A stretch of 64,000 nt of DNA from Cinnamomum chago (lineage: Eukaryota > Streptophyta > Magnoliopsida > Laurales > Lauraceae), in NCBI GenBank assembly GCA_038049695.1, contig CP142452.1, positions 37,374,501-37,438,500 of the forward strand, written 5' to 3'. Of this stretch, positions 2,973 through 43,299 are shown piece after piece (within the stretch, counting starts at the first letter, position 1; every line of letters begins with the position of its first letter). A program made the position numbers and the translations under genes. The notes below the pieces were generated by a model. The model searched no databases, was not told where the DNA came from, and was given only the letters and a program-made list of their open reading frames with translations.

Positions 2973-4841
2973 TGGTCCTCCAAATGAACTAAACAAACCT
3001 AAAAACAAGTGGGGACATTAATCCCACACTTCGAAAACAAAACCTCAAACGACTGATCCAAATTAGTCCTCTCGGAAGCACTTGAACTCACTGGGTCATC
3101 CTCGTTGTAGAACTCTTCGGTCAACTATCAACTATTGTCAGACATTCCACCACTGGCTCGAATCTGTTACTGCTCTACCAATCTGACTACTCAAGGAATT
3201 TGCTATCTCTGACTCCTTCTAAGTTTCCACCAAGTCTCTCGCTTAAAGCCACAATGATACAAATTTTTTTTGGAACAATTCTGTCAACTTCATCACAACT
3301 GTCGAAGCTAGGGTCTCATATCAAACGCACAACCTTCAATGTGAACTCTTTCTGTCCGTTGCTCTTGATCCACTGCACAACAGTCGGTCTCTGACATTAT
3401 CAATATTTGAAGAATCCTTCCGTCAAACCCCTGTCATCCAGCAGATGTTCTTACATAACCTCGAATCTGCTACTCGTCTTTTCCACCAATGTCAGTCCGA
3501 GAAAATGAGGGTTCTGACTCATTCCGATGTACTGTCACTCAGTCTCTGTCGGTCTTGGAATTCCACCACATGCTTTTGAAATATTGCCTTATCCTTCTAT
3601 CTGCCCTTGGCTTTGGAAAAATTGGTGACGCTGAATACTACTGAATATCTCTTTCCTTAGGCAATGTCGTCCAGTCCTCGGTACACTTCTGTCATCTCTG
3701 TCAAAGTTGTTGAAATTAAGTCTCCTGCTAATGCACGATCTTCGAGGTGAATGACTTGGTAATCTGTTACTCCTTCATATGCTAAGCTGATTCAATTAAA
3801 TGTTTGGACGGTCTTCTGAACGCTTCACTCATCTCTATCTGCTCATTGAAAACACACGGTTCACAACTCTGTAGGTTTCCGGCTCTCACTAGACCTGCTA
3901 ACACTTTAACTGTCATGCTACTCCACATGTCCAAACTTCGTGAGGTGTACTTCTATCAAATTCATTCTTCTCTGAGTTTTTCAACTGTCATTGTCCATAA
4001 GTGATGATTCTTCTGCTCGTATCTGTACTCTGCCCAAACTAATGTTCTACAAGTCGGTAAAATCCACAAAATCTTCTCTATCATGTGATCAGGTAACAAT
4101 CAATTCCACATATAACTCTCTACACTGCTGTTGGAAACTAATTTCCTATGCTTTTAACCATCCACTGACACATCCTGCTGAGTCGACTCACTATCATAAC
4201 TGCAATTGTTAAACCTCCTCCAACGATTCTCCGTCACAAGCTCATCAATGCTCGAGAAATTTTTTTAACTTTTCACATCTTCTTGGAGCTGCACCACTGA
4301 AATCACTTCAAACCTCATAAAGTCCACCACTTATTCGGCTTATGGAGTCTTCTGACTTAGGAAAATAATCCAAGTTTATCCAAAAATCCACACTTACTTG
4401 CCTGACGAATCCTCTGACGGTACACGATCAACTGTAATTGGGTCTCGATATGCTGCTCACATTCCTAGTTGACGAACAATTGGTCACAAATTCCTTCTCT
4501 CGCTCCATTTGTGACATCGAAAGCTGAAAATTTTGCCAATGTCCTTCGAGAAACACGTGCGAAGTCCACAAAACTCCGACTCTCTGGCACGAAAATAAGG
4601 AAAATGTACTAAATGTGGGTGCGGAGACATTAAATTCTCCCCCACTAGAAAAGAATTTGGTCCCCCAAATTCTTTAACAACAAGGACAAGAAAATGAGAC
4701 AAAGATAGTCTCCCCCACTAGAAGAAAAACAGACACGAACTCACAGAAACAATGGCTAGCCAAAAGAAAAACTGACACAACTAAACGAGTCCTCACCACA
4801 CGGCTTAAGGTTCCTAGAGTGTTTTATTTCCTAGAAACCTG

Positions 4842-4857
4842 CCCGCTCTGATACCAG
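4842..4857 (-). promoter_or_regulatory. Primer binding site of element A (tRNA-iMet type)
   Basis: On the minus strand the LTR end TGACA is followed by two bases and then CTGGTATCAGAGCGGG, the usual plant initiator-tRNA-Met primer site. It fixes the strand of the element and the inner edge of its 5' LTR at 4860. Confidence 0.9.
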
Positions 4858-4859
4858 TT

Positions 4860-5215
4860 TGTCACGCCCCCAAACCAGAACTTTCGGGCGCGAATGGGAT
4901 TGAGGATAATTATATTTTCTCTCTCCCAAGATCCGCGTGTGTGAAGACAACACATTTCAAAACACTTTGAATATTTTGCGGAAGCTTTCGTGGTGTTACA
5001 ACCCGGAGTCCGTGGCCATCGGATTCCACATCGCACTCAACCTCTAGCATATAGCTATTTTATCAAGAACCATATTAGACTGGAGTAAACCATCACAACA
5101 AACTACAGAGCTGACAGTAACAGGATATTACTTTCCCATACATGTTCAAGTTACAATTATCAATGTACATTAAATAAGAATCCCAAGAAAAGGCTAATAA
5201 AAGCCATACAATAAC
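4860..5215 (-). mobile_element. 5' LTR of element A, 3'-terminal piece
   Basis: This piece begins on the plus strand with TGTCACGCCCCC, the complement of the LTR 3' end, and stops at 5215 where a plus-strand LTR starts. The rest of this LTR resumes at 18454. The last five bases ATAAC (5211-5215) recur at 18449-18453 as the target duplication of the inserted LTR. Without insertions this LTR would be about 3.8 kb. Confidence 0.9.
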
Positions 5216-6837
5216 TGTAAGACCCCGACCCGAGTGAACTCGATTAGTGTTAATTAAGCAGTGTGTTAGTTCTAAGCTTGATTAGTGATTTTGGCTAAGT
5301 TGGGTTTGGAATAGCTTTTGATATAGTTTTGGGGAATTTTGATTGCTTTGTGTTAGTAGGGCCCTTTGGGGGTTCCTTTTTATGTTATTACATGTGTTTG
5401 GGGATTTATCGGAGGTTTTGCATTCATTGTTTTAATCCTGTTTTATTTGCATTGATAATCCCTTCAACTTTCATGTTGATCCCGTCTCCGTTCGAGATCC
5501 CGAAACCCGATTTCATAGCCTTGAGGGCAAAACAGTCATTGCATACAAAATCTGTACCCAAAACTTGATATTCTCGAAACCTGCGAAACATATACTTTTT
5601 GGAAACTAGATATTTCGACGATCATTTCTTCATTCTTCGTCGAATTCATCTGAGGTCCCGAAAGAGATGATTTCAGCCCAATTAGATTTGTTGGTGGTGG
5701 AGCCCACTCCCCACTTGTTTATAAGGGAACCTTTCCCTTCCATTGCCTTTTTCCAGCACAAGAGCGTGAGAACCTAGGGTTTCATTGCCTTCTTCTTCTT
5801 GCTCTTGTTTGCAATCACCAAACTCACCACCAATCTTGCACAACTTGAGTAGTGGAGATCATCACCTCCTTCCTCATCACCCTAGCTCCCTATTGACACC
5901 ATTGCTAGAGAAAACCATTCATCACAAGACTTTCTTTGAGCTCACCATTGCCATTAGAGGACCTTGCAAGTAAGTAATTTTTCCTTCCTTCTAGATTTGT
6001 GTTCCTCTAGCCCTAGAGAAGCTTCACCTTCATTATTGAAAGGTTTCCTTGCCATTTCATTATTTTGACTCTTTTAGGGTTTGTTTGTTTTGAGGGTTTT
6101 TGGTCATAGCTTGGATTCCTTGCTTGGAGGAGTATTAGAGCTTGATTGCATTGTTAGAAGATCTAAGGCAAGTGGAATATATGATCTTTTAAGAGTTTTC
6201 AATGTCCTATGAGAAATGTGGTTGGTTTCATAAATTTTTACTCATGCCTATTTATTGTTGTCTTGCTTTGAAATAAATGCTCATGAAGAGCCTTATTAGT
6301 GCATTTATGGTCATAGAGGAGTGTTGGTTTATAGTAATTAATGTCTTCTTGTTTTGTCTCAAATATGTATATTGTGTGAAATGGTTTCCTTCTCCTTTTC
6401 CCTTGTATTGAATGTGTTGTTGATGGAGGAGAATGGGATGGATGTTGTTGGAGATTGAGGTTGTTGGAATGGAGATTTATACTCCTCAATTGATGTATAA
6501 AAGTGACTAAAAAGGGGTTGTAAAAAGGAAGAGTTATTGTTGTTGACACCAAAAATGTCACTTTGCCTCTTCACACCAAAAGCTACACGGAGCTGCATCC
6601 TACCAAAATAGGCAGGCGCCACTTCAAGCATCAGATCTTGTCAGAATCAAACAAAAACTGCAAAGTCACTCAAAAGAACCAAAAGAGAGGTACACATGAA
6701 GTTTCGGGTCATTTCGATATCATTTGGCCTAGCTTCACTTCTCCAACAGCTAAGCAGCAGCTCCCGGCAGCTGAGCACCCCGGGACCATGGCACCCAATT
6801 CGGAGCTTGTGGATCATCTCAAAATAACTCCAATAGG

Positions 6838-7530: not shown

Positions 7531-7875
7531 CGCCGATTTCGCCCCGGGACCCCCCGTTTCGTCCGTTTTCGCGAGACGAGTTGTTCTGTCCCTGTGATTT
7601 TTCCAGATTCAGACTTTTGAGGCTCCAAATTCGCCGATATTCGCCAAGATCACAGGAATCCTTCCAAGAACTTCAAAAACTTCGTTGATCGCCAGCTGAA
7701 CAACCAAAAAGTGCACTTTCTGCCCGCCCGATCGCGAAATCGACTGGACAGATGCTGCCGGCCCGCTGGTATCAACCAATGTCTGAAACTACATGATCAT
7801 CTGATGTTGATTTACATAAGGATCCATCGATGATCATCGCAAAGGGAATTCCAAGAGACGCAACATGGCCCGCGA

Positions 7876-10090
7876 TGTTAGGAATTTTGTAGATTGCAAT
7901 TTGATGGATGCATTATCATTCTAGCATCATTTGATTCACACACACTTGCATTGTGTTAATTAAACTTGAAATCTTATTTTATTCATGCATTGCTTTTAAG
8001 ATTTGTAAAAGTTTTGTTTTATGCATGATTTGTTTTTTCATCTTGGATGCATTTGTTTTAGAAAAGAGTTTTCAAGAAATCAAGCAAGCCTTTGTTTTAA
8101 AAGTTTTGAAACTTTTTAGGCTTTTTATGTCATGTTTTAAAAACCATTAGAATCTTTAAAACATGTTTTTATAGCTTGATTTAGTAGGCAAAAAGGTCCC
8201 CCAAGCAAAACCTTCATATATGCAAAAGTTGCATTTTTTGCAAGAAGGGGGGAGTCCCGGCAGTGTCGCCGGTCGACCGAGACACAGGTCTCGGTCGACC
8301 GAGACAACTGGAGGTAAAATCTGCAGTTTCTGAACTGAACCTCCAACGGTCAGAAATATGACCGTTATGCCTTCCCGGTCGACCGAGACCTCTTTACCGG
8401 TCGACCGAGGACTAGCCGTTGGACACTTTTTGGCTATAAAATGAGTTCTTTCCCTTACCAAAAGTTGGGAATTTTTAACCCCTCCTTGAGAGGATTTGAG
8501 GCATATCAAAAGGGAAAAGAACCAAGGGATGAAGGGGATGATTAGGAAAGCTAAAGCTTGGATTAATGAAGTTAAACTACCAAGTAGGCTCTTCCTTTCT
8601 TAATCATATGTTTGCATGCTCTTGTTTTATTTTTGGTAAATCATTTCTAGCATGTTAAACTATGTTTGTGTTGTGTCCTTAACATATTTTATGTTTTGAG
8701 TTGATTTATTGTTTTGGATATAACATCACATGATTCAATCCAAGTAGTACTTGAATTGGTAAATCAAAGTAGATCATGTTAATGAAAGAACTTTGGTAAA
8801 TCATATGTAACATGATCCATATACTTGGTTGAATCTTTGGTTGTTGTTTTCCATCATAAGAACATCTCTCTCAAAACTAACTTATGTTTTGGATTCAACT
8901 TCTTTACAAATCATATGTTTTCATGTTTTGTTTTATCATTGGTAAATCTTTGTAACATGTTAATATATGATATGTTGTATCCTTAGCATATTCTATATTT
9001 TGAATAGATCTATTGTTTTGGATACATCACCATTGATTCATCAAAGTAGTACTTTATTGGTAAATCTAAGTAGATCATGTTAATGAAAGATGTAACATGA
9101 TTCATATACTTTGTTGAATCTTTGGGTGTTGTTTTTCCATCATAAGAAAATCTCTCTCAAATGTATCTTATGTTTTGGATTCAACATCATTACAAATCAT
9201 ATGTGTATTATTGTTTTAAAGTTTCACAACTTGCATCACTTTGATAGGTAAATCATTTTCAAGTTGTATTTATAATTACATATGATTTGTCCCCTCTTTT
9301 CAATCAAATCTATTTTTATGTTTTGAGCATCATTGATGATTTGATTGACATCCCTATGCATCACATGTTTAGAGCTAATCCATTTCATACAACTTGTGTA
9401 ACTTTGATATCATTAACAAGTTGTTACTTTTAACATGTGATTGCATTACTTCCTCAATCATAAATGTTTTTGAGCTAAAACTTTCAAAAGCCTTAGGCTT
9501 ACATTTATGAGCTTTCATTTTCTAAATGATTGAGGATCACACACACACACTTCATTTGTTTTCATCTTTGCATCCATAGTGTGAGTGTGTAGTTGTTATT
9601 CACTTCCATATCCGCCTATTTTAGAGGCAAATGTAATGAGCTAAAATGAATCTCCATCTAGTGTATTAAAGACACAACTTAGTGAGATAACCAACCATGT
9701 GGTTGAAGAGGTTATTGCTTAGCCTATAAAAGCATAATGGATAGGTTGATGTTAAGCCTTGAAAAACATCATTGTAAGGTTATTGCTTAGCCTTGGAAAG
9801 CATATTGTAAAGGTTATTGCTTAGCCTATTGAAAAGCATAAATAGTGGAAATCCGGTGGGGTGTTGGTTCACAAGCCGGTAGTGGATGTAGGCATTGAGG
9901 CCGAACCACTATAAATCCTTGTGTGATGGTGCTTGCTTTGTGGTGATTATTTTGTTAGCTTCCGCATCTTGTATGTTTAATCATCACATGTGACTAGTTT
10001 GTTTTAAAGAAGTTAAAATTGTTAAAATTGGTCATAAAAGAAGCTCACCCTATTCACCCCCCCTCTAGGGTTCGGATCCATGGACTTACA
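7876..10090 (+). mobile_element. 5' LTR of element F
   Basis: TG...CA-bounded (TGTTAGG ... GACTTACA). A TATA box (TATAAAA) is at 8435-8441. Immediately upstream, 8270-8411 holds a cassette of GGTCGACC palindromes. Downstream, about 8600-9540 carries several hairpins, some with a GGTAAATC-containing loop, and 9690-9850 holds repeats of GGTTATTGCTTAGCC. Diverged relatives are the minus-strand solo LTR at 53909-56043 and the truncated copy at 26541-27047. The 65-, 69- and 117-codon frames inside it are repeated in the other LTR and are not genes. Confidence 0.93.
8270..8411. repeat. Palindrome cassette upstream of the TATA box, LTR F
   Basis: Arms CGGTCGACCGAGAC (8270-8283) and GTCTCGGTCGACCG (8288-8301) pair perfectly across the 4-base loop ACAG. 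8288-8305 is itself a perfect 18-bp palindrome. AACGGTC/GACCGTT form a further 7-bp hairpin near 8345-8367, and two more GGTCGACC copies lie at about 8378 and 8399. The TATA box follows about 25 bp later. The position suggests a promoter element or a structured region; neither is shown. Confidence 0.88.
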
Positions 10091-10092
10091 AG

Positions 10093-10107
10093 TGGTATCA
10101 GAGCGGG
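10093..10107 (+). promoter_or_regulatory. Primer binding site of element F
   Basis: TGGTATCAGAGCGGG follows the LTR end by two bases. This is the standard tRNA-iMet primer site of plant LTR retrotransposons. Confidence 0.92.
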
Positions 10108-10237
10108 TTACTCCATTTTAGGGCTTAACAACCCGGAGTTGATCCTTGCTAGATTTGAACCCTAGTGTTGTGATTTATTGCATATCTTTTTAAAGATTTC
10201 CACTATGATTGAAATTGAAATTTCCCTAGCCTCATTG

Positions 10238-12420
10238 CACCACTCTAAGACTTTTCCAAGTTATATCTTCTAGAGTTGGTGAGTCCTCAAAGTGATCTTT
10301 CAAGGACAACCTTTTCAAGGCTTTAGGTGAATTTTCAAAGGTAGACTATTTGAGTAACCTTAGGCCTTGATACCCCTAGACCAACCTATGCTTTTTAGTT
10401 ATATCTTTTTGTTGGTCATGTTACATTTGCATTTTGTTTCTTTAAAGTCACATCTTTTAAAATGCAATGTTTCTTTGTGATCATTTGATTTTGTCTTCAT
10501 GATCTTTTAAGTTATATCTCATGGTTTTCAAAATCCTTTGATTGCAATTCTTTCATGATGGATTTGCATATTGTTCTTTTAGTAATATCTCTTGTTGTGC
10601 ATATCTATTCATGATCAATTGATTGTGATTACAAATGCTTTCATAGCTAGTTTTTCATGATCAATTGATGTTGGAAAATCATTTGATGATTGTCATAGTT
10701 ATATCCTTTTTGGAAATCAAATGATTTGAAGCAACCTTAGTTTTCCATTGATTTACAAGTTATATCTTTTGATATGGAAAATTTGTAAGTGTCTATTGTT
10801 TTTACAAATTGAAAACTTTACAATAGTACACTTCTTGTTTTTCAAAATCACTTGCTCTTAATTCTATAAATGATTCTTTGTTGGAATTTCATACATTGAA
10901 GTGATTTGAAAAACTTTGGAAAATGTTCTAAGCTTTATTAGTTATATTTATAGAAGCATTTTCCTTGAATTTATTTCCTTGTGCCTAATTATGATTGTAT
11001 CATTTGAAAGGAAATAATTTTTACAAACAATTTGCATCTTTGCTCATTTAGTTATATTTCTTTATGCAAATTGATTTTGATGTCTTACATTGCTTGGTTG
11101 GATATGGTTTCATTGATTTGCATGTTTGTGCCTAACTTGGTATATTCTCATTAATGCATTTTGATGATTGGTTATGTGCTCTATAGTAAAATCTTTTGTT
11201 TTATTATTATTTGAGCCTAATAAGTACATTTGTGATTTAATGTGCTAAGTTCATTTGATATAAACCTCATATCTTTTTCCATTGCATTGTAAGCTAAGTG
11301 CATTTGCTAAGAGTGGAGATGTTACATGATAGCTTAATGAATCATTTTAGATGAATTGGAATTAAACCATTGTTCTTAATAGGTATATCCATTTTTGTGG
11401 TCCATCTTCATCTTTATGTGATCCATGATGTCTCTCTAACTTCATACCTTCTTGTGCTTACATAGTTATATTCTTTATTGATGATTGGTATGATTTAGAT
11501 CTTGAATGTTGATTAATCCTCTCTATGCAAATGTCAAATCGTTCTATGTATGGTTGTGGTATTGATTACATTTGTTGAAACCATACTAGAACTCAAATCC
11601 ATCCTCTATGCCTTTCTAGTCATATCTTTTTGGATGGTTATGATGTTGATTCATGTATTTTCTCTAAGTGATATCATCCTTATACATGTTTCAACTTCAT
11701 AGTAGTGATCTTGATCATATGAAACTCTTTGAAATCCATTCCTCATATTTCTATGTGTTTGATGGATAACTTAGAGGTTGAATTCATATGATTTAGTCAC
11801 TTTATAAATTGCATGCATCTCAAAGTCATATCCTTGTGCATTGCAATTTATCTTGTTCATCACTATGCTCAATAGTTATATCTTTAAAAGTGATGAATAT
11901 GCATTTATGATGCTTGATGAAATTTTGTCACATTCTTGCTCTTTATCATGTTATCAAATTCAATTGGTTTCAATTGATATATTGTTTGATTGATTTGATT
12001 TCTTGTGAATGTGATAAATCTTGTGTGCATTGGATTGAACTTGATAAGTAATATGATTATTCCATGTCACACACCATTAGCATCATAATGCTCATGTTGC
12101 CACCTCTCTTGCTCATATATGTATATCTCATGACCACCATGTTTATGTGTTCATAATATTGGTTGGTTATTAGTTGAGGTTGGCTTCATGTTTGAATTTC
12201 ATTTCACTCAATTTGCACTTTAATAAGTCATATTTTTTGATTGAATGAAATGATTTTCAAAATCTTACATAGCACATGTTTTTCATAAGTAATATTGATT
12301 GATGCTATGTTTGAGTAAACCCCATATCATGGATAGCTCTAATTTGGATTTCTCATAATAGTTATACTTTTAAATCCATTTTAGAGTGATTGATTTATTA
12401 AGTCATATCCTAAATCTCAA
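10238..12420 (+). other. Hairpin array with constant loop motif, inside element F
   Basis: About 18 consecutive imperfect inverted repeats occupy the internal region. Examples (left arm/right arm): 10238-10247/10271-10281; 10379-10385/10411-10417; 10423-10435/10459-10470; 10676-10687/10716-10727 (12 bp, perfect); 10741-10748/10774-10781; 10918-10930/10951-10964; 11028-11037/11064-11073 (10 bp, perfect); 11804-11817/11837-11851; 11856-11864/11889-11897 (9 bp, perfect); 12267-12274/12303-12310; 12337-12351/12372-12386. The arms share no sequence from one hairpin to the next, but most loops of 25-35 bases carry a motif near AGTTATATC or AGTCATATC followed by T-rich bases. No coding frame crosses the region. 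I do not recognise the arrangement. Confidence 0.8.
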
Positions 12421-13206
12421 TTGGTATTCTTTGTTTGTCCAATTGATATCCATGATTGCTTTTCTCATTGACCTAGCTCTCTTTTGGTAATTTGATCATA
12501 TTGAGCCTTATAGTTATATGAATCTAATCCTTTTCTTGAAGTTGACCCTCAATTGGTTAAACCATCTTCTTCTTGAACCAAATAGTTAAACCTTTGTCAA
12601 GAGTTTGACAAAAGGAGAGAATGGATTGAGGGGGAGTGTAAACCTTCATAGGAAGTATTAGTTTTGATCAAATTGACCATTGGATTGCCTTTGAGCCCTT
12701 AGAGATTACCACCACTCATGATAGCCTGTTATGTATTTCATTTTTGATTTCATTTGTTAACAGGTGCTACTAAAGGTATTTTCCTTATTTCATGTGTGTA
12801 GGTACCTTTGCAATTTAATGGCAAAGGGGGAGAAATTATGCAAGTTCTCAAAAGGGTGAAGAGAAAGTCCAAGCTTCCAAAGGGGAGAGTTGTGTATGAT
12901 CTTCTACAAAGGGAGAGAATGCATACCTTGCCAAAGGGAGAAAGAGGCATGGTCAAAGGGGGAGAGCTAATAGAAGATAGAAAGCTTGGAAGCTAAAGAA
13001 GATGCTTGGATAAAGAAAGAAAGAAGAAAGAAAGCTTGAAGATTGATCAAGCTCCAAGCATCATGAAGATTGAAGCCCAAGAGCCCAAGCTAAGAGAAGA
13101 AGCATCCAAGAAGATTTCAAGACTTGTCCAGCTGAGGGGGAGCTGAAGACCAAGTGTGTAATTTCAGTGGTGAGTGGGTTTGCCATCAAATTGCAAAGGG
13201 GGAGAT
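12421..13206 (+). mobile_element. 3' internal region and polypurine tract of element F
   Basis: This stretch has G-rich purine blocks: CAAAGGGGGAGAAATT near 12824, AAAGGGGAGAG near 12879, AAAGGGGGAGAG near 12956, GAGGGGGAGCTG near 13134, and finally CAAAGGGGGAGAT abutting the 3' LTR at 13206. The last one is the functional-looking polypurine tract; the others are tract-like repeats upstream. Short open frames here (62 and 68 codons) do not resemble known proteins. Confidence 0.75.
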
Positions 13207-15421
13207 TGTTAGGAATTTTGTAGATTGCAATTTGATGGATGCATTATCATTCTAGCATCATTTGATTCACACACACTTGCATTGTGTTAATTAAACTTGA
13301 AATCTTATTTTATTCATGCATTGCTTTTAAGATTTGTAAAAGTTTTGTTTTATGCATGATTTGTTTTTTCATCTTGGATGCATTTGTTTTAGAAAAGAGT
13401 TTTCAAGAAATCAAGCAAGCCTTTGTTTTAAAAGTTTTGAAACTTTTTAGGCTTTTTATGTCATGTTTTAAAAACCATTAGAATCTTTAAAACATGTTTT
13501 TATAGCTTGATTTAGTAGGCAAAAAGGTCCCCCAAGCAAAACCTTCATATATGCAAAAGTTGCATTTTTTGCAAGAAGGGGGGAGTCCCGGCAGTGTCGC
13601 CGGTCGACCGAGACACAGGTCTCGGTCGACCGAGACAACTGGAGGTAAAATCTGCAGTTTCTGAACTGAACCTCCAACGGTCAGAAATATGACCGTTATG
13701 CCTTCCCGGTCGACCGAGACCTCTTTACCGGTCGACCGAGGACTAGCCGTTGGACACTTTTTGGCTATAAAATGAGTTCTTTCCCTTACCAAAAGTTGGG
13801 AATTTTTAACCCCTCCTTGAGAGGATTTGAGGCATATCAAAAGGGAAAAGAACCAAGGGATGAAGGGGATGATTAGGAAAGCTAAAGCTTGGATTAATGA
13901 AGTTAAACTACCAAGTAGGCTCTTCCTTTCTTAATCATATGTTTGCATGCTCTTGTTTTATTTTTGGTAAATCATTTCTAGCATGTTAAACTATGTTTGT
14001 GTTGTGTCCTTAACATATTTTATGTTTTGAGTTGATTTATTGTTTTGGATATAACATCACATGATTCAATCCAAGTAGTACTTGAATTGGTAAATCAAAG
14101 TAGATCATGTTAATGAAAGAACTTTGGTAAATCATATGTAACATGATCCATATACTTGGTTGAATCTTTGGTTGTTGTTTTCCATCATAAGAACATCTCT
14201 CTCAAAACTAACTTATGTTTTGGATTCAACTTCTTTACAAATCATATGTTTTCATGTTTTGTTTTATCATTGGTAAATCTTTGTAACATGTTAATATATG
14301 ATATGTTGTATCCTTAGCATATTCTATATTTTGAATAGATCTATTGTTTTGGATACATCACCATTGATTCATCAAAGTAGTACTTTATTGGTAAATCTAA
14401 GTAGATCATGTTAATGAAAGATGTAACATGATTCATATACTTTGTTGAATCTTTGGGTGTTGTTTTTCCATCATAAGAAAATCTCTCTCAAATGTATCTT
14501 ATGTTTTGGATTCAACATCATTACAAATCATATGTGTATTATTGTTTTAAAGTTTCACAACTTGCATCACTTTGATAGGTAAATCATTTTCAAGTTGTAT
14601 TTATAATTACATATGATTTGTCCCCTCTTTTCAATCAAATCTATTTTTATGTTTTGAGCATCATTGATGATTTGATTGACATCCCTATGCATCACATGTT
14701 TAGAGCTAATCCATTTCATACAACTTGTGTAACTTTGATATCATTAACAAGTTGTTACTTTTAACATGTGATTGCATTACTTCCTCAATCATAAATGTTT
14801 TTGAGCTAAAACTTTCAAAAGCCTTAGGCTTACATTTATGAGCTTTCATTTTCTAAATGATTGAGGATCACACACACACACTTCATTTGTTTTCATCTTT
14901 GCATCCATAGTGTGAGTGTGTAGTTGTTATTCACTTCCATATCCGCCTATTTTAGAGGCAAATGTAATGAGCTAAAATGAATCTCCATCTAGTGTATTAA
15001 AGACACAACTTAGTGAGATAACCAACCATGTGGTTGAAGAGGTTATTGCTTAGCCTATAAAAGCATAATGGATAGGTTGATGTTAAGCCTTGAAAAACAT
15101 CATTGTAAGGTTATTGCTTAGCCTTGGAAAGCATATTGTAAAGGTTATTGCTTAGCCTATTGAAAAGCATAAATAGTGGAAATCCGGTGGGGTGTTGGTT
15201 CACAAGCCGGTAGTGGATGTAGGCATTGAGGCCGAACCACTATAAATCCTTGTGTGATGGTGCTTGCTTTGTGGTGATTATTTTGTTAGCTTCCGCATCT
15301 TGTATGTTTAATCATCACATGTGACTAGTTTGTTTTAAAGAAGTTAAAATTGTTAAAATTGGTCATAAAAGAAGCTCACCCTATTCACCCCCCCTCTAGG
15401 GTTCGGATCCATGGACTTACA
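13207..15421 (+). mobile_element. 3' LTR of element F
   Basis: It has the same length and order as the 5' LTR at a constant offset of 5331. TATA box at 13766-13772 and palindrome cassette at 13601-13742. It is followed by the target duplication CGCGA (15422-15426) and then the resumed LTR H sequence. Confidence 0.93.
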
Positions 15422-16631
15422 CGCGACTCTTCAGCTACCAAGGTGGCCACTTAGTGCAATCAATTGGCCCGTTTATGGCAAGTTAATGCGGTCATTAACC
15501 CATTATCTTGAACGGCCCAATCAGAAGCCTCCGTTCAGGAGTTACAAGTCCAAGCAATCATGGCATTCAAGCCATGAAACTCCTAACATAATGGAGATTA
15601 AAGGCGATTAAATGCCCATGACTCTCCTCCGGCCAATGAAATCCAAGGGTCAGGAGTTACAAAACAAAAAGCAATTAAACTCGTAACTCCTCCCTTAATG
15701 AGCTTTATTACCATAAAGGCTCATAAATCACTCCTAAAGGCTACCAAAAGGCCTATAAATAGGAGTCCTCTCCAAGCATTCCAAAAGGGGGGGACACACA
15801 CAGAAGGATCCGGGAAAATCGCCACAGATCCGGAAAAATCGCCAGAAAATCATTCAAAAATCCTTGGAGAAATCTCTACAACCCTGCTCCTTCAAGAAAA
15901 CTCTGCTGCAACAAGTTCAACAAGGTGATTGAAGCCCCTTGGGGGGCCACCCCCTCAAAGACCACCTATCCTTCTATCCAACATGGCTAGATGCGGCTTT
16001 TCAGCCCGTCTACTCAGCCTTTTACCGGATATAGGACCTTATCTTGGTCCTTATCCTCTAAAAATCTGAGGTTGGAGCCAAGCCAAGAAATCAAGCACTA
16101 TGTTCTCATCTGAAGGACGATGACGGAGCCCATACATGACTCGCGACCATCGATCTGAACGAGCCCTCCCACAATCGCATGAGAAGTTAGATTCCTTTTT
16201 CTTACTTTTCTGTTGTAAATTGTATTTTTTCTAAAGAGACAAAAAATCACATCTCTTGTCTTTCATTATTGATAAGATTTGTAAATCGCCTTTCATGGCA
16301 AAATCGCCTCCAACGGCACCAAACCGCCTTCTACGGCACAAAAACGCCTTTCACGGCATTCAAACAAAACTGTCTCTTTTATTAAAATATGTATGCAATG
16401 GAAAACTAAAAAAAAGTTTCATTTCCCTTTTTACTTGTGAAGGTGGATCTCCGGATCACCATTTCTAAATTCCAAGTATTAAAGAGAAATTGGCATACCC
16501 GTACAAAAAAACTGATGCCCGCTTTTCCTTTTTCCCTCCACCATACCCCGTCAGCCCCGGGGCGGAGGCAGCTTTGGAAAAAGACAAAAGCCGGGACCAT
16601 CAATTGTGAAACTGAACTGATCCGAATTCAG

Positions 16632-18453: not shown

Positions 18454-21400
18454 AAGCTAATAACCACTACCCATATGTGACGCAACTCCAATGTCAAGCT
18501 CAATGTCTACATGACATAGCCGACAAAACAACCTACAACTCATGGCTCCACAGCCAGCAAAAGCACTCATCTCGGGATGAAAAAGTCTGGACCCGAGTAC
18601 CAAAAGTAGTAGGTCAGACACGACGGTCTGGCAGGTGGATGAAAAGATAAAAAGTATGCTGAGAATTAAAACATATGATAAATCATGCTATTTGATCAAA
18701 TGCTGCATATAATTAAACGGGTGCAAAATCGGGGATCTCTGACAAAACATGTATTCATTTCAAGCATGGGTAAAACATGGAGATCTAACAAAACATATGT
18801 TCATTTACATCATCTATAAAAGTATAGATATTTGACAATTGGGTGTTCGTTTAAAACATGTACAAATATAGAGGTCTGGCAAAACAAACGTTCATTTGAA
18901 ACATATGTAAAAGCATGAGTATTCGACAAAGCGGGTATTTATTTAAAACATGTGTAAACATATTTAAAAGCATGGATATTTAACAAATCGGGTATTCATT
19001 TAAAACATGTGTAAACGTAGGGATCTGGCAAAACAAATGTCATTTGAAACATATTTAAAAGCATGGATATTTAACAAATCGGGTATTCATTTAAAACATG
19101 TGTAAACATAGAGATCTGGCAAAACAAATGTCATTTGAAACATATTTAAAAGCATGGATATTTAACAAATCGGGTATTCATTTAAAACATGAGCGTGTAC
19201 GAGGAACGGAAAACAATATAACAATAATTGAATTTACCGTGGAAAATATTAACACCTGTTTAAATAATAACTTTCATAAAAGAAATGGATCATTTACCGA
19301 AAAACAACTAAGCAATATAAAACATGTAGGGTATCTAAGGAATCGGGAACTAGCAAGATGACAACCACACGAAACTAAGTCCTCTATCACTAAAGTGATA
19401 GAGCAATAACTAGGCATTGATCTCAGTCACTCAAGGTGAGGAGAAATAATGGATCTCATACATACAATAACTAGGCACTGATCTCAGTCACTCGAGGTGA
19501 GGAGAAACAGTGGATCTCATAAATAGATATACATATACTATACATGACCACGGTAGCGAGCCGGGCATCGGGAACCACAGTAGCAATCTGCGGTATCGGG
19601 ACAAGACCACGGTAATAACCGGGTAGCGGGATCCAAACTGAGCTGGTGGGACAAGAGGGGGATCTCCAAGTCGGTGGATCAGACCAACAGGGTTATCCAA
19701 GCTTAGTGGTGCCAACTAATAGGTCAAATAACAAATTGAGACATGTGCAAGTAAATCAAGTACAAATAAACAAACGGGCAGGATGGGGGTGCTGAAGGGC
19801 ACACTGTTATTTCATGTCGAGCAATACGTTTCGGGGCTAGCAATTATTACAAGTACACTTTCAATACTTTCGGGAATAACAAGTCAAAGTAGTGTAAATT
19901 CGGGAACAATGAAATACCATAGAACTTTTGAAATCTCAGGACAAGTATCGAGGTTCAAAACTAGTTCAAGGTGGATAGGGATCCCGTATGTCAATATATT
20001 TATAAAACTTGGTACTCCTTGAGGTTGGCGACATTTCGGGGTCCTTATACACTTTGGGGTTTTCGAGACTTCAAATGAATCTTAGTAATATGGTTTCTTT
20101 CTCAAACGGACTCCATGCGCATCTCCAGGTGAACGGTCCCCATCATTCTCTAAAAGGGTTCACAAATGATTGGGACGGAAATCCTATCCATTTCTCTCCA
20201 TTTCCCTCCATTTCCATGTTTCTGGTTAATTTCGGTCACTTGGCGGTTAGCCGCCGCTGGGTTCGGCGGCTAGCCGCGGCTGGGTTGGAAAATTGCAGCT
20301 TACTGGAAAGCTAACCGCCTAGGGTGCGGTTAGCCGCTGCTGTGTTCGGCGGTTAGCCGCAGGGTAACCGCGGGGGAGACCGCTGGGTTCAGGGGAAGGA
20401 AGTGCTCTCTGGAAAAGTGACCGCGATGGTTCGGTCAGCTGGTGGTTAGCCGCCAGTCACTAGGCGGCTAGCCGCCAGGTGACCGCTGGCTGACCGCCAG
20501 GTGCGGGAAAAACCCCCACTGTGTTCAGATTGAGCCCTTTCTCCCTTAAACCATTCCTCACATAACTCCCCCTACATTCCTGCAATAAAATGAGTCCAAG
20601 ACTCCTCCAATTCATCATTAAAATTTCCACAAACTTCCACCACAAACACCTCCATTCTCTTCACATTCAATCACCAAAGAGAGAGAGAGAGAAACCACAG
20701 TTCATAAGATTCATCCACACTTAGTAACGTAATAGATGCATTCATCAAGATGTTTAACAGAGAAATCAACTCATAAATATGTATTTCAAAAGTGCTGAAA
20801 TCAAGACAAGAAGACTATGAAAACATATGTAAAGTCAATAAGAACCATTAATGCCAAAAACAAGGAATTTCCATGAAACATGTAAGTGTTCAAAACTTAT
20901 CCATTCATCAACTTGCCTTGGGTCCAAGCTAGCAAACCAAGCTTCTAATCACACTCTCAAGCTCAAGATCAACAATCTCTACAAAACCCCCAAAATGAAC
21001 CATCACAAACCCTAAAATGGGTCAAACAATGAAAGACAAGGAATGAGCTCAAAGCAAGCTAGGAAATAGAACCTAAGGGAAACCCATAGCTCAACAATAG
21101 AAAATGGAAAGAAGTCCTTACCTCTAGGGCCATCAATCAACAAGAAGAAGCTTGAAATAGGTGCTGCCCACCTTGGTTTTGCACAATAATGGTGTCCATG
21201 GGAAGCTAGAAGGATGGAGAAGAAGAAGTTGAGCTCCAAACTCCATTTTGCAAGGTTTGGAGGTGGGTTTTTGTGAAAGGAAGCAAGAAGGAGAAGAAGA
21301 AAAGGGCAAAAACCCTATGGAGCTGAAGTTCTCCCCCCTTCAAGTGCTGGAAAGAATGGGAGAGGAAGAGAGGGGCTGATCCCTTTTATAAAAGGGTGGG

Positions 21401-21906
21401 TTTGGGCCCCACCATCACTTAAGCTTGTCGGGATTAAAACATCAATTTCTGGGCCTCGGATGCCATCGACGAAGAAGAGGAAAATGTTTCTCATAAAATC
21501 TAGTTTTCAGAATGTATATATTTGGCATGGTTCTGAAATCTCAAAATTTGGGTCCAGATTTGGTGTGAAAAGACTGTTTTGCCCCTAACATTAAGAAAGT
21601 AGGGTTTCGGGGTTTCGAACGGGGACGAAGTCAACATGAAAGTTGTAGAGATTAACAAAAATAAGTCAAACGAGGCTAAAACAAGAATTATCAGAAATTT
21701 TGAATAATCTCCCAATCACGCGCAAGGTCACTAAAAGAACTCCCCAAAGGGTCCCACTAATTACAAAGCCACTCAAAACTCCCCAAAACTAGTGAAAAAC
21801 CATTCTAGCTCACAAACTCAACTCAACAAACACTAATCCCACTAAAAGAAACTAATCCACAAATAAAACAACACTAATCCAGGAAATTAGGGGTCGGGTT
21901 CTTACA
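18454..21906 (-). mobile_element. 5' LTR of element A, main piece
   Basis: It continues the LTR broken at 5215 and ends at 21906 with plus-strand TTCTTACA, complement of the LTR start TGTAAGAA. It matches 1-2951 almost base for base except near its 5' end. It holds the 91-bp tandem repeats, the GGCTAGCC cassette at 20242-20478 and a TATA-like box near 21386. The flanking bases CAGTT (21907-21911) should match the element's other flank, which is outside the window. Confidence 0.92.
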
Positions 21907-25330: not shown

Positions 25331-26540
25331 TGTCATGTCCCCAAAATAAGAATTAGGGAAAAACGTGGAAAATAAATCAAATTCAAATTCCTGTTTTTAA
25401 TACAACACAAGCTTCCAAAAGTGGACCCACATAAAATCACAAACCATGGAGAGTAAAAATAAATTTCATTAAATGCAACGAAAGCTTTATGCAATTGATA
25501 TACAAAGTTCATAAATGAGATCCAATAGGAAAATCAAATAAACATTAATAGTTAAAGTTGCAGAATAAATTAATCAATTACTAAAGGAAGGTTTATCATA
25601 AAAAGAATGTTCATCTAAAAAATTGCTAAGATGACGTTCTCTCTCATGCTGGCTCAGACGGCTCCAAAGCCACCTCTGGCACTCCACTTGGGTTCGTCAA
25701 TTGGCTCAAACGTTTGAAACGTTTGATCCTCCTCTGTCTCCTCGGTAAAGTAGGGCTCGGTATCTATGCACCAAATATTATAAAGTAAATAGCAAGAACA
25801 TGATCATAATCCGAAATTAAAATACAATAATGAGATGAGTAAAGACAAGTGAGATCATATAGAAGTAATGACAAAGATAATAACGAGAACAAACATATGA
25901 CATAAATCCAAACGACACAAGGGAGCAATATATAATTCTCACGGTGACAAGTGTCCCCGTTGTGGGTGGTTGGCCCTACATAAATCGGGAAAGCCCGTCC
26001 ATAAAGTCGGTGGTCATAAACCAATCAAAATATCAAGATAACCTGTCCATAGTTCAAAGCGGATTATAAGTGATTCGGTCACATCGGTGATCAATTATCC
26101 AAATATCGATCTGCAGTCGTCCATAAATGACACACATAAACGTAAACATAAACATATATTCATAATAGACCTGATTAATAATGCTCTGACACAAGAGTCC
26201 TATGTCAAAATGAAGTGCTGACCATTCCACATTCCATATCATAATCAAATCACCATACATAATTTGTCAAGCCACTTCATAGTCCATAACACACAATAGG
26301 GTATGCATCTAAAGTAATACATAATATAAACCAAGATATGCATGCAAAGGTCAAGATATAGTTATGAATCAATCCTAAGGTTAGACGTGTTTTCATATAA
26401 CTTTCAACGTACAACGATAAACGCTGGTGAGTTAGGGATGTTACATCTCTCAACATTCATGGTGCATAGATCCAATGAAGAATTTCCATTAGAGATGTAT
26501 TCATTACAATCATACAGGTGTTTGAATCCTATGTCAATAA
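25331..26540 (-). mobile_element. 5' LTR fragment of element J
   Basis: From plus-strand TGTCATGTCCCC at 25331 (complement of the LTR 3' end) to the start of another LTR at 26541. It has the layout of the gypsy LTRs elsewhere in the window but is diverged. The word CAAACGTTTG and an adjacent AAACGTTT (25709-25730) are short palindromes like those in the cassettes of other LTRs. The LTR 5' end is not visible. No protein is encoded. Confidence 0.6.
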
Positions 26541-27047
26541 TGTTAGGTATTTTGTTTTTGCAATTTGGTGGATGCATTTGCATATTGGCATCATTTGAAT
26601 TCACACACATGCATTGATTTAAAATATCTTGAAATCTAGCTTTATACATGCATTGGTTTTTAGATTTGGAAAAGTTTGTGTTTTATGCATGGTTTGGTTC
26701 TAAACTTGGATGCATTGGTTTTAGAACCCAAAACTCTTTTGAAAACCAAATTCCTTGTGCATTAGATTTGGAAAATCTTCTTGTGAATTTAGGTTTGAGC
26801 TTTGCATACATTCAGCACCTTTAGAATCAGTTTTGTATGCAATTTGATTTGAAAAGAGTTTTTACTAATCAAGCTTGCCTTTGGTTTTAAACCTTTGAAT
26901 CATTTTAGGCTTTGTGTGTTTCATGTTTTTAAATGTTTTAAAACATGTTTTTAAGCTTGGTTTAGTGACCCACAAAATTCCACAAAGAAAATCTTCAAAA
27001 TGCAAAAGTTGGAATTTTTGGGGGGTGTCCCGGCAGTGTCGCCAGAT
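26541..27047 (+). mobile_element. Truncated LTR I of the F family
   Basis: Starts TGTTAGGTATTTTG and follows the first ~500 bp of LTR F (GTGGATGCATTTGCAT, CATGCATTG, TTTTAAGCTTGGTTTAGT) with many changes. Homology stops at about 27047, immediately after GGCAGTGTCGCC, which is where the palindrome cassette begins in LTR F. The rest of the LTR is absent. Confidence 0.8.
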
Positions 27048-29560: not shown

Positions 29561-30200
29561 TATTTATTGAGTAATGGTAGTTTTGTGACAGTAGGGGACC
29601 AAAATCGCAGTGGACCTAAGTTATTTTTCGAATCAAAATACTTTATCTTTTGGGCCTACTTATAAAAATATAAGGCATTAAAATTAATGCCTCTACTTGA
29701 TATTGGCCCTTAATAAATTTTAATCAAACTAAAATTGGGCCCATCAAATTTATCACTTTTAAGTCATGTGAATAAAAAATATATATTATGGTGGGACCAA
29801 GTCCTTGGAGAATCCCCCTCTTTTATCTAATGGATCCAAGTTGTTTTTTTAATTAAAAGACTTTATAGTGAGCCTACTTATAAAAATATAAGCTATTAAA
29901 AACAAATGCCTGCTCTTTATTTGGGTCCGCAACAAATTTTAATTGAACTAAAATTGGGCTTATCGGATTTGTCACTTATTAAGTAACCTGAATTAAAATA
30001 TAAAAGGTAAAATTCAAATGCTTTATAGTAGTCAATCTAATGATAATTCCATCGGGTATCAAAAAATTTTCTTAACTTACACTCCCATAATAGAACCCAC
30101 TTATAAAAAAACTAAATCACTCATGACTAATGCGTCCCTAATAAGCCCTCAAATAATTTTATTCATATAGGAGTTGGGTTCAATGTCATATTTATTATTT
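29561..30200. repeat. Diverged tandem duplication, about 230-bp unit
   Basis: The string of phrases TACTTATAAAAATATAAG, ATTAAAA...AATGCCT, AATTTTAATCAAACTAAAATTGGGC, ATCAAATTTATCAC appears at about 29658-29765 and again at about 29873-29985. A weaker third copy is near 30105-30200. No coding content. Confidence 0.65.
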
Positions 30201-30830
30201 TTAAGAAAAAGTTCAAGTAGCGTTCTTGTAGTCAATGTGGGCTACATAATTGATCTGTAAATTAAAAAGATGACCAGAAAAATTATAACAAGACAATAAG
30301 CATATTAAATTGATAAAGATTAAACAATGATACCAGATGATATGATTTAGGGGCCAATATTTTACTTTATAGTTGTTACTAATGGAAATCAACATCATTC
30401 TCTGGCATTTTATAATGTTATGGATTACATTGGATATTTTCTCAAAACTTTTTGGGGTAGAAACATTTTACGCCACTACGACTACGCGGATAGGGAACAT
30501 TACGTGGTTGATACTGTTTTGGTGTCATTTATTGGGATCGACCAATACTATTATTATCATCCATGCCTTAGCATAAGAAAGATGGTTGATTCGTAATGGA
30601 GCTCCGCACATATTTCAGTCACACGCTCATCAATATTTTTTTTTAGCTAAAGTCTTAACCCAACTTGATTTTAAGACTCATTAATTATGCTAGAAGACTT
30701 TGTTGACATCTTTGATAGTGTGTCATCAGTCGTGCAGTGCAACCCACCCCATTCAAAGTAAAATTTGACGATGCCCCATAAAAAAGTATAGCTAAAAGTA
30801 AGACACATAAGAAATTAGCTATAAAAAAAA
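30201..30830. other. No feature recognised
   Basis: AT-rich sequence without a convincing gene or repeat. A 67-codon frame at 30373-30576 has no family resemblance that I can name. Confidence 0.3.
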
Positions 30831-30834
30831 GGTT

Positions 30835-31728
30835 GTTGCTACACTCCTAGATTCCTAGACCACATTAGGGGTAAAAGATTAAAACTTGACACTAATTCTC
30901 TTTCCCCTCCAAAATGACCTTTAGTCACACCATATAAGTTGCCACTAAATGTGATCACTATACTACCTTCACTAAAGTGAGTCTTTTGTGGCAAAAATAA
31001 CATTGTGGCTAAAAGTGTCGCCACTAAAAGCTGGCTTTCATATAATATATTTTTAGTGGCAATAGAAAGTCGCCGCAAAAGGTGGCGAAAATAAGACAAC
31101 TAAGCATCTAGCCACGAAAATAAAAAGTTGCCACTAAACTCCTAGACCATTAGTGGCAAAAAAAGAAAACTCGCCACTAAATCTCCTTCCCCTCCAAAAT
31201 GACTTTTAACTACAACATATAAGTTGTCATTAAATGTGATCACATAATACCTTTAGTGTCAACATCAAGCTTCGCCACTAAAGGTGAGTTTTTGGTGGCG
31301 AAAATTAAATTATGGCAAAAAATGTTGCCATTAAAAGTCGACTTTCTTGTGATATATCTTTAGTGGCAATATAAAGTAGTCAGAAAAATAGAATATACAG
31401 TGTCAAAAAATATACCGCATCTAAATGTAAGAATCTAAGAAATTAGTAGCGATTATAAAAAATCGTCACTAAAATTGTACACGATTAGTGGCGATAAATT
31501 AAAACTTGCCACTAAATCTCTTTCCCTCCAAAATCCCATGGCGCCAAAAAATCCCCGCCAACGAATTAGTGGCGAAATTTAGCTGCGACATATAAGTTGC
31601 CACTAAATGTAGGCATTATAATAGCTTCAGTGGCGACATCAAATCTTTGCCACTAAAGGTGGGTTTTTAGTGGCAAAAATTAGACCGCGGCTAAAAAAGT
31701 CGCCACTAAAAGCCAACTTTCTTGTAGT
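30835..31728. repeat. CACTA-type terminal region with tandemly repeated units
   Basis: The right edge reads CTTTCTTGTAGTG, complement of the CACTACAAGAAAG terminus typical of CACTA (En/Spm) transposons. To its left are many GCCACTAAA/TTTAGTGGC words, the usual subterminal transposase-site repeats. The segment consists of three diverged units of about 300-370 bp, each ending with a phrase like TCGCCACTAAAAGnCnACTTTCTTGT (about 31020, 31325 and 31695). No transposase is present; the left terminus was not found. It is a terminal remnant or a non-autonomous derivative. Confidence 0.75.
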
Positions 31729-32214
31729 GACAAAAGGTTGCACCAGTTGCGCTCTTTGGTCAGGTTGATGTCTAGGTAAGTCCCGTCCCTACCAAAAAGG
31801 GTGGCAGTCTCTGTTCTAAGAGTTTGGATCTTAAGCAGGACCCTTGCCAAGTGCATTGTGACCCCACCACTCATCCTGGGGACTTACCTGGTCGATTTGA
31901 CTTCATAAGACCGGATTGGAGGCCTTAGTGCACTCTTCAAACCAGTTAGGAGCTGTCTAGTGATTAGGCTAACCCTAGGATAATTTTTTGTGCTCAATCT
32001 TTGTGCTTGACTGCTTGTGCATCATCTAGTAAGACCATTAGGGTCCCGCATATAGATTAGGCTTGCATTTCTTTAAGGTTGAACCCGATGCATGCGCTCT
32101 AGACCTGAGAGAGAGAAACTTTGGGTACGCAAGAGTAAAAGGTTAGTCAGGATATAGCCCGAATTAGCCTTAACCGTTGTCGGAAAGTCCTCCATTTTTA
32201 AAGAAATTGTTAGG
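31729..32214 (+). mobile_element. Leader upstream of Athila-type gag
   Basis: Non-coding sequence between the CACTA terminus and the gag start codon. It has the length and position of a gypsy 5' leader, but neither primer binding site nor LTR remains; they were presumably cut off at 31728. Confidence 0.45.
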
Positions 32215-42759: not shown

Positions 42760-43299
42760 CACTACAACAAAACACAGTTTTGCCAACGCAGTCACTGTGT
42801 CTGGAAAGGTGGGTTTTGTGTCGGCAAACGATTTCCCAATGCATTTCAGCGCGTCGGCAATCACATGTAGCCAAATCCATATCCGACGCTATTTAACTGC
42901 GTCGGCATATCCCTGTACAATTGCCAACGCACTGCAGCGTCGGCCAATACGTCGGCAAAGAGATGTGCGTCGGCAAAAACTCCAGGCAAAAACTCCAACT
43001 TTTCTGATTCGAAAACTATATTTGCCAACGCTGGTAGTGCGTTGGGAGTTCCTAGTAATGGCCGACGCTGGCAGCGCGTTGGGAATTTATAGTAATAGCC
43101 AACGCTTGTAGTGCGTTGGGAATTCGTAGTAATATTCGACGATGATTAAGCGTTGGGAATTCATGAAATAGCCGACGCTATCAAAGCGTTGGGAATGCAT
43201 GAAATAGCCGACGCTACCAATGCTGGGAATTCATGAAATAACTGACGCTACTAATGCATTGGGAATATATGAAATAGCCGATGCTACCAATGCATTGGG
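42760..43299 (+). mobile_element. CACTA terminus with subterminal repeats, truncated
   Basis: It begins CACTACAACAAAACACAG at 42760, the terminal inverted repeat style of CACTA elements. It is followed by about ten copies of the palindrome-like pair GCCGACGCT ... AGCGTTGGGAAT in repeated 40-50-bp units (42930-43299). Such subterminal arrays bind the accessory transposon protein. The element is cut at 43300 by LTR E and the opposite end is not in the window. Confidence 0.85.

Follow-up and report, generated by a model that had tools for sequence, protein, structure and literature searches.

A hairpin chain with a recurrent loop word in the gene-less interior of an LTR retrotransposon bearing Sirevirus signals

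What purpose is served by the non-coding interior of a gene-less LTR element, and how such an interior is recognised by the proteins of other elements, is a question raised here by element F, an LTR retrotransposon on the + strand at positions 7876-15421 (7546 bp) of the window (the whole 64,000-nucleotide stretch of Cinnamomum chago DNA that was analysed), the interior of which had been described in an initial annotation as a series of inverted repeats. We ask whether these repeats are real, how they evolve, and what they might do.

A gene-less element and its hairpins

The two LTRs of element F (5' LTR 7876-10090, 3' LTR 13207-15421, + strand; 2215 bp each) are identical throughout, and the element is flanked by a perfect 5-bp target-site duplication, CGCGA (7871-7875 and 15422-15426, no strand assigned): the insertion is therefore recent, as initially proposed. 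The interior of 3116 nt (3.1 kb) begins with AGTGG and the primer binding site TATCAGAGC (10091-10104, + strand), a published Sirevirus variant with G in second place, and its longest stop-to-stop frame is 80 aa. Pfam returned no match for the four frames scanned of the five interior frames of at least 60 aa. With frames this short and no match in those scanned, a degraded gag-pol region is ruled out as the source of the interior, and the earlier statement that gag-pol is missing is borne out. A search of 7800-15500 against Rfam (E up to 1) gave five weak matches, all under the gathering score (that to MIR395 reached 21.8 bits against a gathering score of 56); identity with a known RNA family, miRNAs included, was thus ruled out at the Rfam gathering score.

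Element F is enclosed by direct repeats of 2.95 kb (1-2951 and 18954-21906; 99.5% identical), so that F may lie nested inside a larger element with these as its LTRs, or between the halves of a duplication. The window further contains fragments that are 77-82% like the start of the F LTR (26540-27043) and a tandem repeat of 36-37 bp in about seven copies (43024-43299).

Analysis shows that short hairpins, some 20 to 30 in number, make up the interior, lined up head to tail. The array (10238-12535, + strand) was evaluated over 10200-12560, where 17 non-overlapping hairpins are found at score 18 (shuffle mean 4.6, maximum 8, 40 shuffles), nine at score 22 (shuffle mean 0.8, maximum 3) and 23 at score 16. 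Two control stretches gave three hairpins (shuffles 2.2, maximum 7) and four (2.0, maximum 5) at score 18, and two each at score 22 (shuffles 0.3 and 0.2; maxima 2 and 1). The hairpin series is real, and there are more inverted repeats than composition gives. Three of the arm pairs first named are exact: 10676-10687 with 10716-10727 (hairpin 10676-10727, + strand, word at 10697), 11856-11864 with 11889-11897 (hairpin 11856-11897, + strand, word at 11874; arms unchanged in a distant copy, L091) and 12337-12351 with 12372-12386. A fourth, 11028-11037 with 11064-11073, lies within the longer pair 11025-11037/11064-11077. Further examples on the + strand are the hairpin at 10918-10964 (arms 10918-10930/10951-10964, word at 10940), a unit of about 93 bp at 11338-11431 with one hairpin (arms 11349-11360/11401-11413, word at 11381), and the longest-armed hairpin at 12191-12261 (arms 12191-12212/12240-12261, word at 12226).

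Folding energy had been suggested as a check. The mean folding energy of the array per 100 nt lies far below that of shuffled sequence (z -7.0 on the + strand and -5.2 on the - strand, 30 shuffles each), and a comparison stretch at 4000-6800 does not (z +1.1 and +2.1). However, a second stretch (30000-32200), which has local repeats of its own, is also far below shuffles (-6.2 on + and -3.6 on -), so that folding energy alone is not special and the case is carried by the word and arm tests.

Loop words near AGTTATATC number 23 in the array, at positions ranging from 10259 to 12512. The own-arm score at these words is 17.9, compared to 13.3 (sd 0.55, maximum 15.8) for arms swapped between sites, and none of 20,000 derangements reaches 17.9. 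Taken singly, eight of the 23 sites score above the 95th percentile for swapped pairs and two above the 99th; at 11185, 12120 and 12512 the arms are weak or far. When random positions inside the array are used as a control – positions that are often in hairpins themselves – 12 of 20,000 sets reach the own-arm score of the words. Words fall inside loops in 16 of 20 cases, with loops occupying 33% of the array, and are closer to the 3' arm at 20 of 23 sites: both the enrichment between arms and the offset toward the 3' arm were thus described correctly. Among the 23 hairpins at score 16, 15 contain the word and eight are without it. Shuffles and arm derangements together rule out chance or AT-rich composition as the source of the hairpins. 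Tandem duplication of one ancestral hairpin was likewise rejected (similarity among the 23 units with the word masked 13.4, against 14.1 when shuffled), by a rough test in which shuffled units retain fewer masked letters.

Hairpins of similar layout occur in the LTRs. The F LTR holds 11, compared to 3.0 in shuffles, with a different loop word, GGTAAATC, which at four of six sites stands 13-14 nt past the 5' arm and 5-6 nt ahead of the 3' arm. Own arms at LTR words are better than those at positions drawn at random from the LTR, where 95 sets in 20,000 reach the score of the words; swapped LTR arms score up to 26, because LTR hairpins have arm sequence in common. The region of the polypurine tract (PPT; 12561-13206) has one hairpin against 0.3 in shuffles and thus no excess. 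Since the LTRs are built similarly with another loop word, the array is part of a hairpin layout running through element F. The initial annotation had placed arms of 6-15 bp in 10238-12420; hairpins are indeed found there, but arms reach at least 22 nt and, with the LTRs also filled by similar hairpins, the feature extends beyond that interval.

Sirevirus signals and relatives in the host genome

Seven published Sirevirus non-coding signals were compared with element F, and all were found. Five polypurine octamers AGGGGGAG begin at 12629, 12825, 12957, 13135 and 13197 (12629-13204, + strand), the last 10 bp upstream of the 3' LTR. The attachment site reads AGGGGGAG-AT-TG, with the AT/TG of Sireviruses, and the junction reads CA/AGTGG-TATCAGAGC, where Sireviruses have CA/ATTGG or AGTGG followed by TATCAGAGC. 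A perfect 14-nt inverted repeat surrounds the junction of PPT and 3' LTR (13183-13238, + strand; arms 13183-13196/13225-13238); in the part of the Sirevirus description drawn on here, the mean arm is 28 and the left arm borders the terminal octamer (PMC2829016). Four exact CGGTCGACCG palindromes of the CGG-CCG kind (Sirevirus RM boxes) stand 0.39-0.53 kb into the LTR (13601-13738, + strand) and are followed by a TATA box (13766, + strand), and a poly-C tract, the Sirevirus integrase signal, lies near the LTR end (15388-15394, + strand). According to the same part of that source, RM boxes lie in the upper half of the LTR, Sireviruses with RMs have at least eight copies in all, the Vitis element is listed with CGGTCGACCG as its box, and palindromes form clusters in Sirevirus LTRs, with one consensus box given per element (PMC2829016). 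Having no pol, element F is placed by these non-coding signals, which make this young, non-autonomous, LARD-like element a probable Sirevirus (Copia).

A second locus of the same genome (L094) carries what we take to be a pol end of Copia type, although Pfam gave no match for the two pieces of it that were scanned. Its junction is identical to that of element F over 27 of 27 nt, its linker contains three AGGGGGAG octamers, and its LTR pieces are 81-85% like the F LTR; the word is absent from the linker, which has no clear hairpin excess. With the RNase H piece of this locus as query, 150 places of 11,664 candidates were scored, and dozens lie in open frames of 1608-1620 aa. The host genome thus contains gene-bearing relatives that could supply Gag and Pol, and these may mobilise F. 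By eye, none of 51 array places lies within 10 kb of the 150 RNase H places, a weak comparison in which both lists are partial. Coding relatives recur at a spacing of about 6.9-7.0 kb, for example on contig C9 (15.002-15.030 Mb).

Copies of element F itself were sought in the surrounding genome, which comprises 14 contigs and 1.06 Gb. Searching with a 601-nt array piece gave 2587 candidates – not a copy number – of which 40 were scored, all of them 98-100% identical. A pattern of two words 30-60 nt apart gave 51 places, compared to one for the reversed control, and these include subfamilies down to 73% like F in 10310-10785. The window itself contains a solo LTR of a related subfamily (53909-56043, - strand; 88% like the F LTR, flanks GCACG and GTACG), and four of 20 LTRs retrieved with it then show a primer binding site plus two to four words within 1.5 kb. 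Some copies follow one another in tandem LTR-interior arrays, at intervals of 5.02-5.06, 5.32 and about 5.24 kb. Array-bearing copies are repeated in tandem on contigs C1 (75.937-75.978 Mb), C4 (43.918-43.955 Mb) and C8 (6.300-6.311 Mb), at 5.0-5.3 kb and with up to nine listed units. In a distant relative (L090, 2624-3848; about 71%), some 1.2 kb of other DNA separates the LTR end from the array-like part. Among viral contigs, the PPT/LTR pattern had no match; the word pair had 11, none with the LTR word, and these were taken as chance.

Hairpins are not peculiar to the copy in the window: found independently in L047, L093, L042 and L044, they number 12, 16, 12 and 16 (shuffles 4.0-4.5), with 10, 12, 12 and 11 of 14 words in loops. 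The unit of about 93 bp at 11338-11431 is present in F and five of 20 copies and absent from 15: whole hairpins come and go between copies.

Evolution of arms, loops and pairing

The initial annotation had proposed a conserved loop with freely changing arms. This holds between different hairpins of one array, but between copies the reverse is seen. In an alignment of 20 other insertions (93.5-96.0% like F), variable sites make up 9.2% of stem positions, compared to 24.6% of loops, 22.1% of words and 19.9% of spacers. The stem deficit is present for each of the four bases, and it is matched by none of 2331 rotations in which the annotation is shifted along the alignment. With hairpins defined in L047, L064 or L069 (the other subfamily) and variation taken from the F group, the values are 11-13% for stems, 27-29% for loops and 18-20% for spacers. 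Fixed differences between the two groups in 10310-10785 number 9 of 158 stem sites, 26 of 145 loop sites and 13 of 57 spacer sites; in 11524-12090 they number 5 of 167, 12 of 117 and 5 of 171, with spacers no faster than stems, and in 12080-12600, 0 of 121, 0 of 55 and 2 of 216. Changes per site, by parsimony on trees of three regions, were 0.27 for stems, 0.75 for loops and 0.43 for spacers on inner branches, and 0.45, 0.95 and 0.76 on terminal branches. In the distant copies L091 and L090, stem identity is 0.75-0.84 compared to 0.59-0.74 for loops (hairpins defined in F). Array arms thus change at about a half to a third of the rate of loops, and it is well supported that they are under constraint, mostly kept as they are, at the level of RNA or DNA.

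Compensatory arm changes among copies had been expected if pairing matters, and this expectation largely fails. Changes are mostly one-sided: the pair types in the array include 13 that are compensated against 107 mismatches, with 48 A-C and 43 G-U. Among the 1735 cells of 43 pairs in which both sides vary, 1210 are Watson-Crick, compared to 1166 (sd 6.8) with one side shuffled (0 of 500 reach it), an excess that related rows inflate. Inner branches show 48 pair-restoring and 53 breaking changes – with pairs defined in F, a bias toward restoring – and terminal branches 39 restoring and 153 breaking, about fourfold. Between the F LTR and the solo LTR, one or three compensated pairs stand against 26 or 37 broken ones, depending on which LTR defines the hairpins; several hairpins with 25-nt loops are unchanged.

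Wobble pairs tell a similar story in the array. Changes to G-U and A-C number 14 and 10 on inner branches and 45 and 44 on terminal branches, and the wobble test on the F array (G-U 13, A-C 7; shuffles 333, 161) gives no signal. The same test would favour RNA in the F LTR (G-U 26, A-C 6; shuffles 276, 197), and gives G-U 19 and A-C 10 in the solo LTR (shuffles 289, 199), each being one of several tests. With G-U no commoner than A-C in the array, these counts do not support an RNA level.

The low number of two-sided changes also bears on the proposal that the hairpins arose without function, by fold-back copying by reverse transcriptase: both arms should then change together. Although arms are unrelated between hairpins (by a rough test), and a homologous hairpin (F 10676, L091 4934) has wholly different arms in the two copies, such a mutational process predicts neither slow stems nor a recurring loop word, and we regard it as very improbable.

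What the hairpins might do

Our tentative reading, to which we give somewhat less than an even chance, is that the hairpins are putative sites, repeated along the genomic RNA of element F, for Gag binding or packaging. They would be individually dispensable and would draw F RNA into the Gag/Pol particles of coding Sirevirus-like relatives. Many weak stem-loop sites, with differing stems and a common loop feature, could provide a high total affinity, and an element without genes might thereby compete well for proteins made by others; the similar LTR hairpins may extend the same putative system. Selection would act on hairpins in genomic RNA of the + strand for as long as a lineage continues to be copied, with decay in dead copies. 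Because the spread of gene-less F depends on packing by foreign Gag, the most economical view is that of a multivalent RNA tag.

This reading is favoured by hairpins and a word beyond chance, slow stems, hairpins found independently in relatives, inner branches on which restoring and breaking changes are about equal, Sirevirus signals, coding relatives and a layout like that of dispersed packaging signals. As far as the part of the source used here describes them, the latter are, in RNA viruses, many stem-loops of varying sequence with a common recognition motif (PMC6281560). The likeness is in layout only (many stem-loops, a loop motif in common): element F is a retroelement known here from its sequence, and its word drifts between copies. 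Slow stems, presence and absence of units, and word-less hairpins fit many weak, partly redundant sites. Against packaging stand the rarity of compensation, the lack of a G-U preference, and a word – the proposed recognition feature – whose drift keeps pace with that of spacers. The slowness of stems extends to terminal branches, and between groups spacers in 11524-12090 are no faster than stems. About one third of hairpins lack the word, as does the linker of L094; in L091 only one of four words is in a loop, and its stems are only slightly better kept. A fuller version, in which the whole interior has turned into a row of over 20 packaging sites in the RNA and the element out-competes coding Sireviruses for Gag, with arms selected and whole sites added or lost like beads, is doubtful.

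Two alternatives deserve weight. The hairpins could act as DNA, as a cis-region dense in palindromes that has spread from LTR palindromes into the interior and that serves to bind factors or to influence transcription or chromatin. The shared layout of LTR and interior agrees with this, as do the Sirevirus RM palindromes (a DNA role has already been proposed for LTR palindrome clusters), the excess folding on both strands, and the equal frequency of G-U and A-C, as expected if wobble pairs give no help. But the word, in the form counted on both strands, occurs 20 times on the + strand and once on the - strand (shuffles 0.66 and 0.99), which favours a single-stranded form, and double-stranded DNA sites need no orientation; loops of 20-30 nt with differing arms are also unlike repeats of one palindromic box. 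We consider a DNA role rather unlikely. The hairpins could instead act in RNA without packaging, by making a long non-coding transcript more compact or more stable, by keeping it from being translated or degraded, or by aiding dimerisation or reverse transcription. The same arm constraint speaks for such roles, and with word-less hairpins common and the word drifting, pairing itself may count; what they leave unexplained is a one-strand word near the 3' arm at 20 of 23 sites, and we hold them, too, to be on the unlikely side. That small RNAs arise from the array, as they do from palindromic Sirevirus LTR regions in maize – small-RNA hotspots in the parts of PMC5311732 and PMC10760457 used here – is most improbable, given short arms, Rfam matches below gathering, and silencing being a cost that offers no reason to keep arms.

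The initial interpretation of the array is thus partly supported. Its statement that no retroelement of this type had been described was too strong, because LARDs and Sirevirus LTR palindrome clusters are known. LARDs (for example Sukkula of the Triticeae) are gene-less LTR elements whose interior of about 3 kb reportedly specifies conserved RNA structure, as Kalendar and co-workers are said to have described in 2004. Element F resembles them in its long LTRs with priming sites, its large frame-less, non-coding interior of about 3 kb, its high copy number and its structured interior, conserved among 20 copies and structured in four relatives. LARDs are Gypsy-like; element F differs in its Sirevirus (Copia) signals and in a chain of short hairpins with a common loop word that continues into the LTRs. 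The TRIM class is defined by miniature size, which element F, at 7546 bp with 2215-bp LTRs, does not have. It shares with TRIMs and Cassandra a non-autonomous LTR organisation and tandem LTR-interior arrays, but on the part of the source used here these are much smaller and the Cassandra LTR carries 5S sequence, for which F has no Rfam match (PMC7215508). Unlike Sireviruses, F is without gag and pol, and where the Sirevirus repeated motif is one palindromic box per element, in the part of the description drawn on, F has an array of differing hairpins (PMC2829016). In the literature searched, with most subscription papers outside its coverage, such a hairpin array is not described. As a kind, element F is a LARD, set apart by its Sirevirus signals and by a hairpin chain with a recurring loop word.

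The slow arms suggest that element F contributes to its own spread through the shape of its RNA or DNA and not through a protein. The family is a natural experiment: it has young copies, its subfamilies differ from one another by whole hairpins, coding relatives abound in the same genome, and the layout of arm, word and arm is simple. If the hairpins bind Gag, the idea of packaging signals would be extended from viruses to plant retrotransposons, and the family would show selection on a parasite of a parasite.
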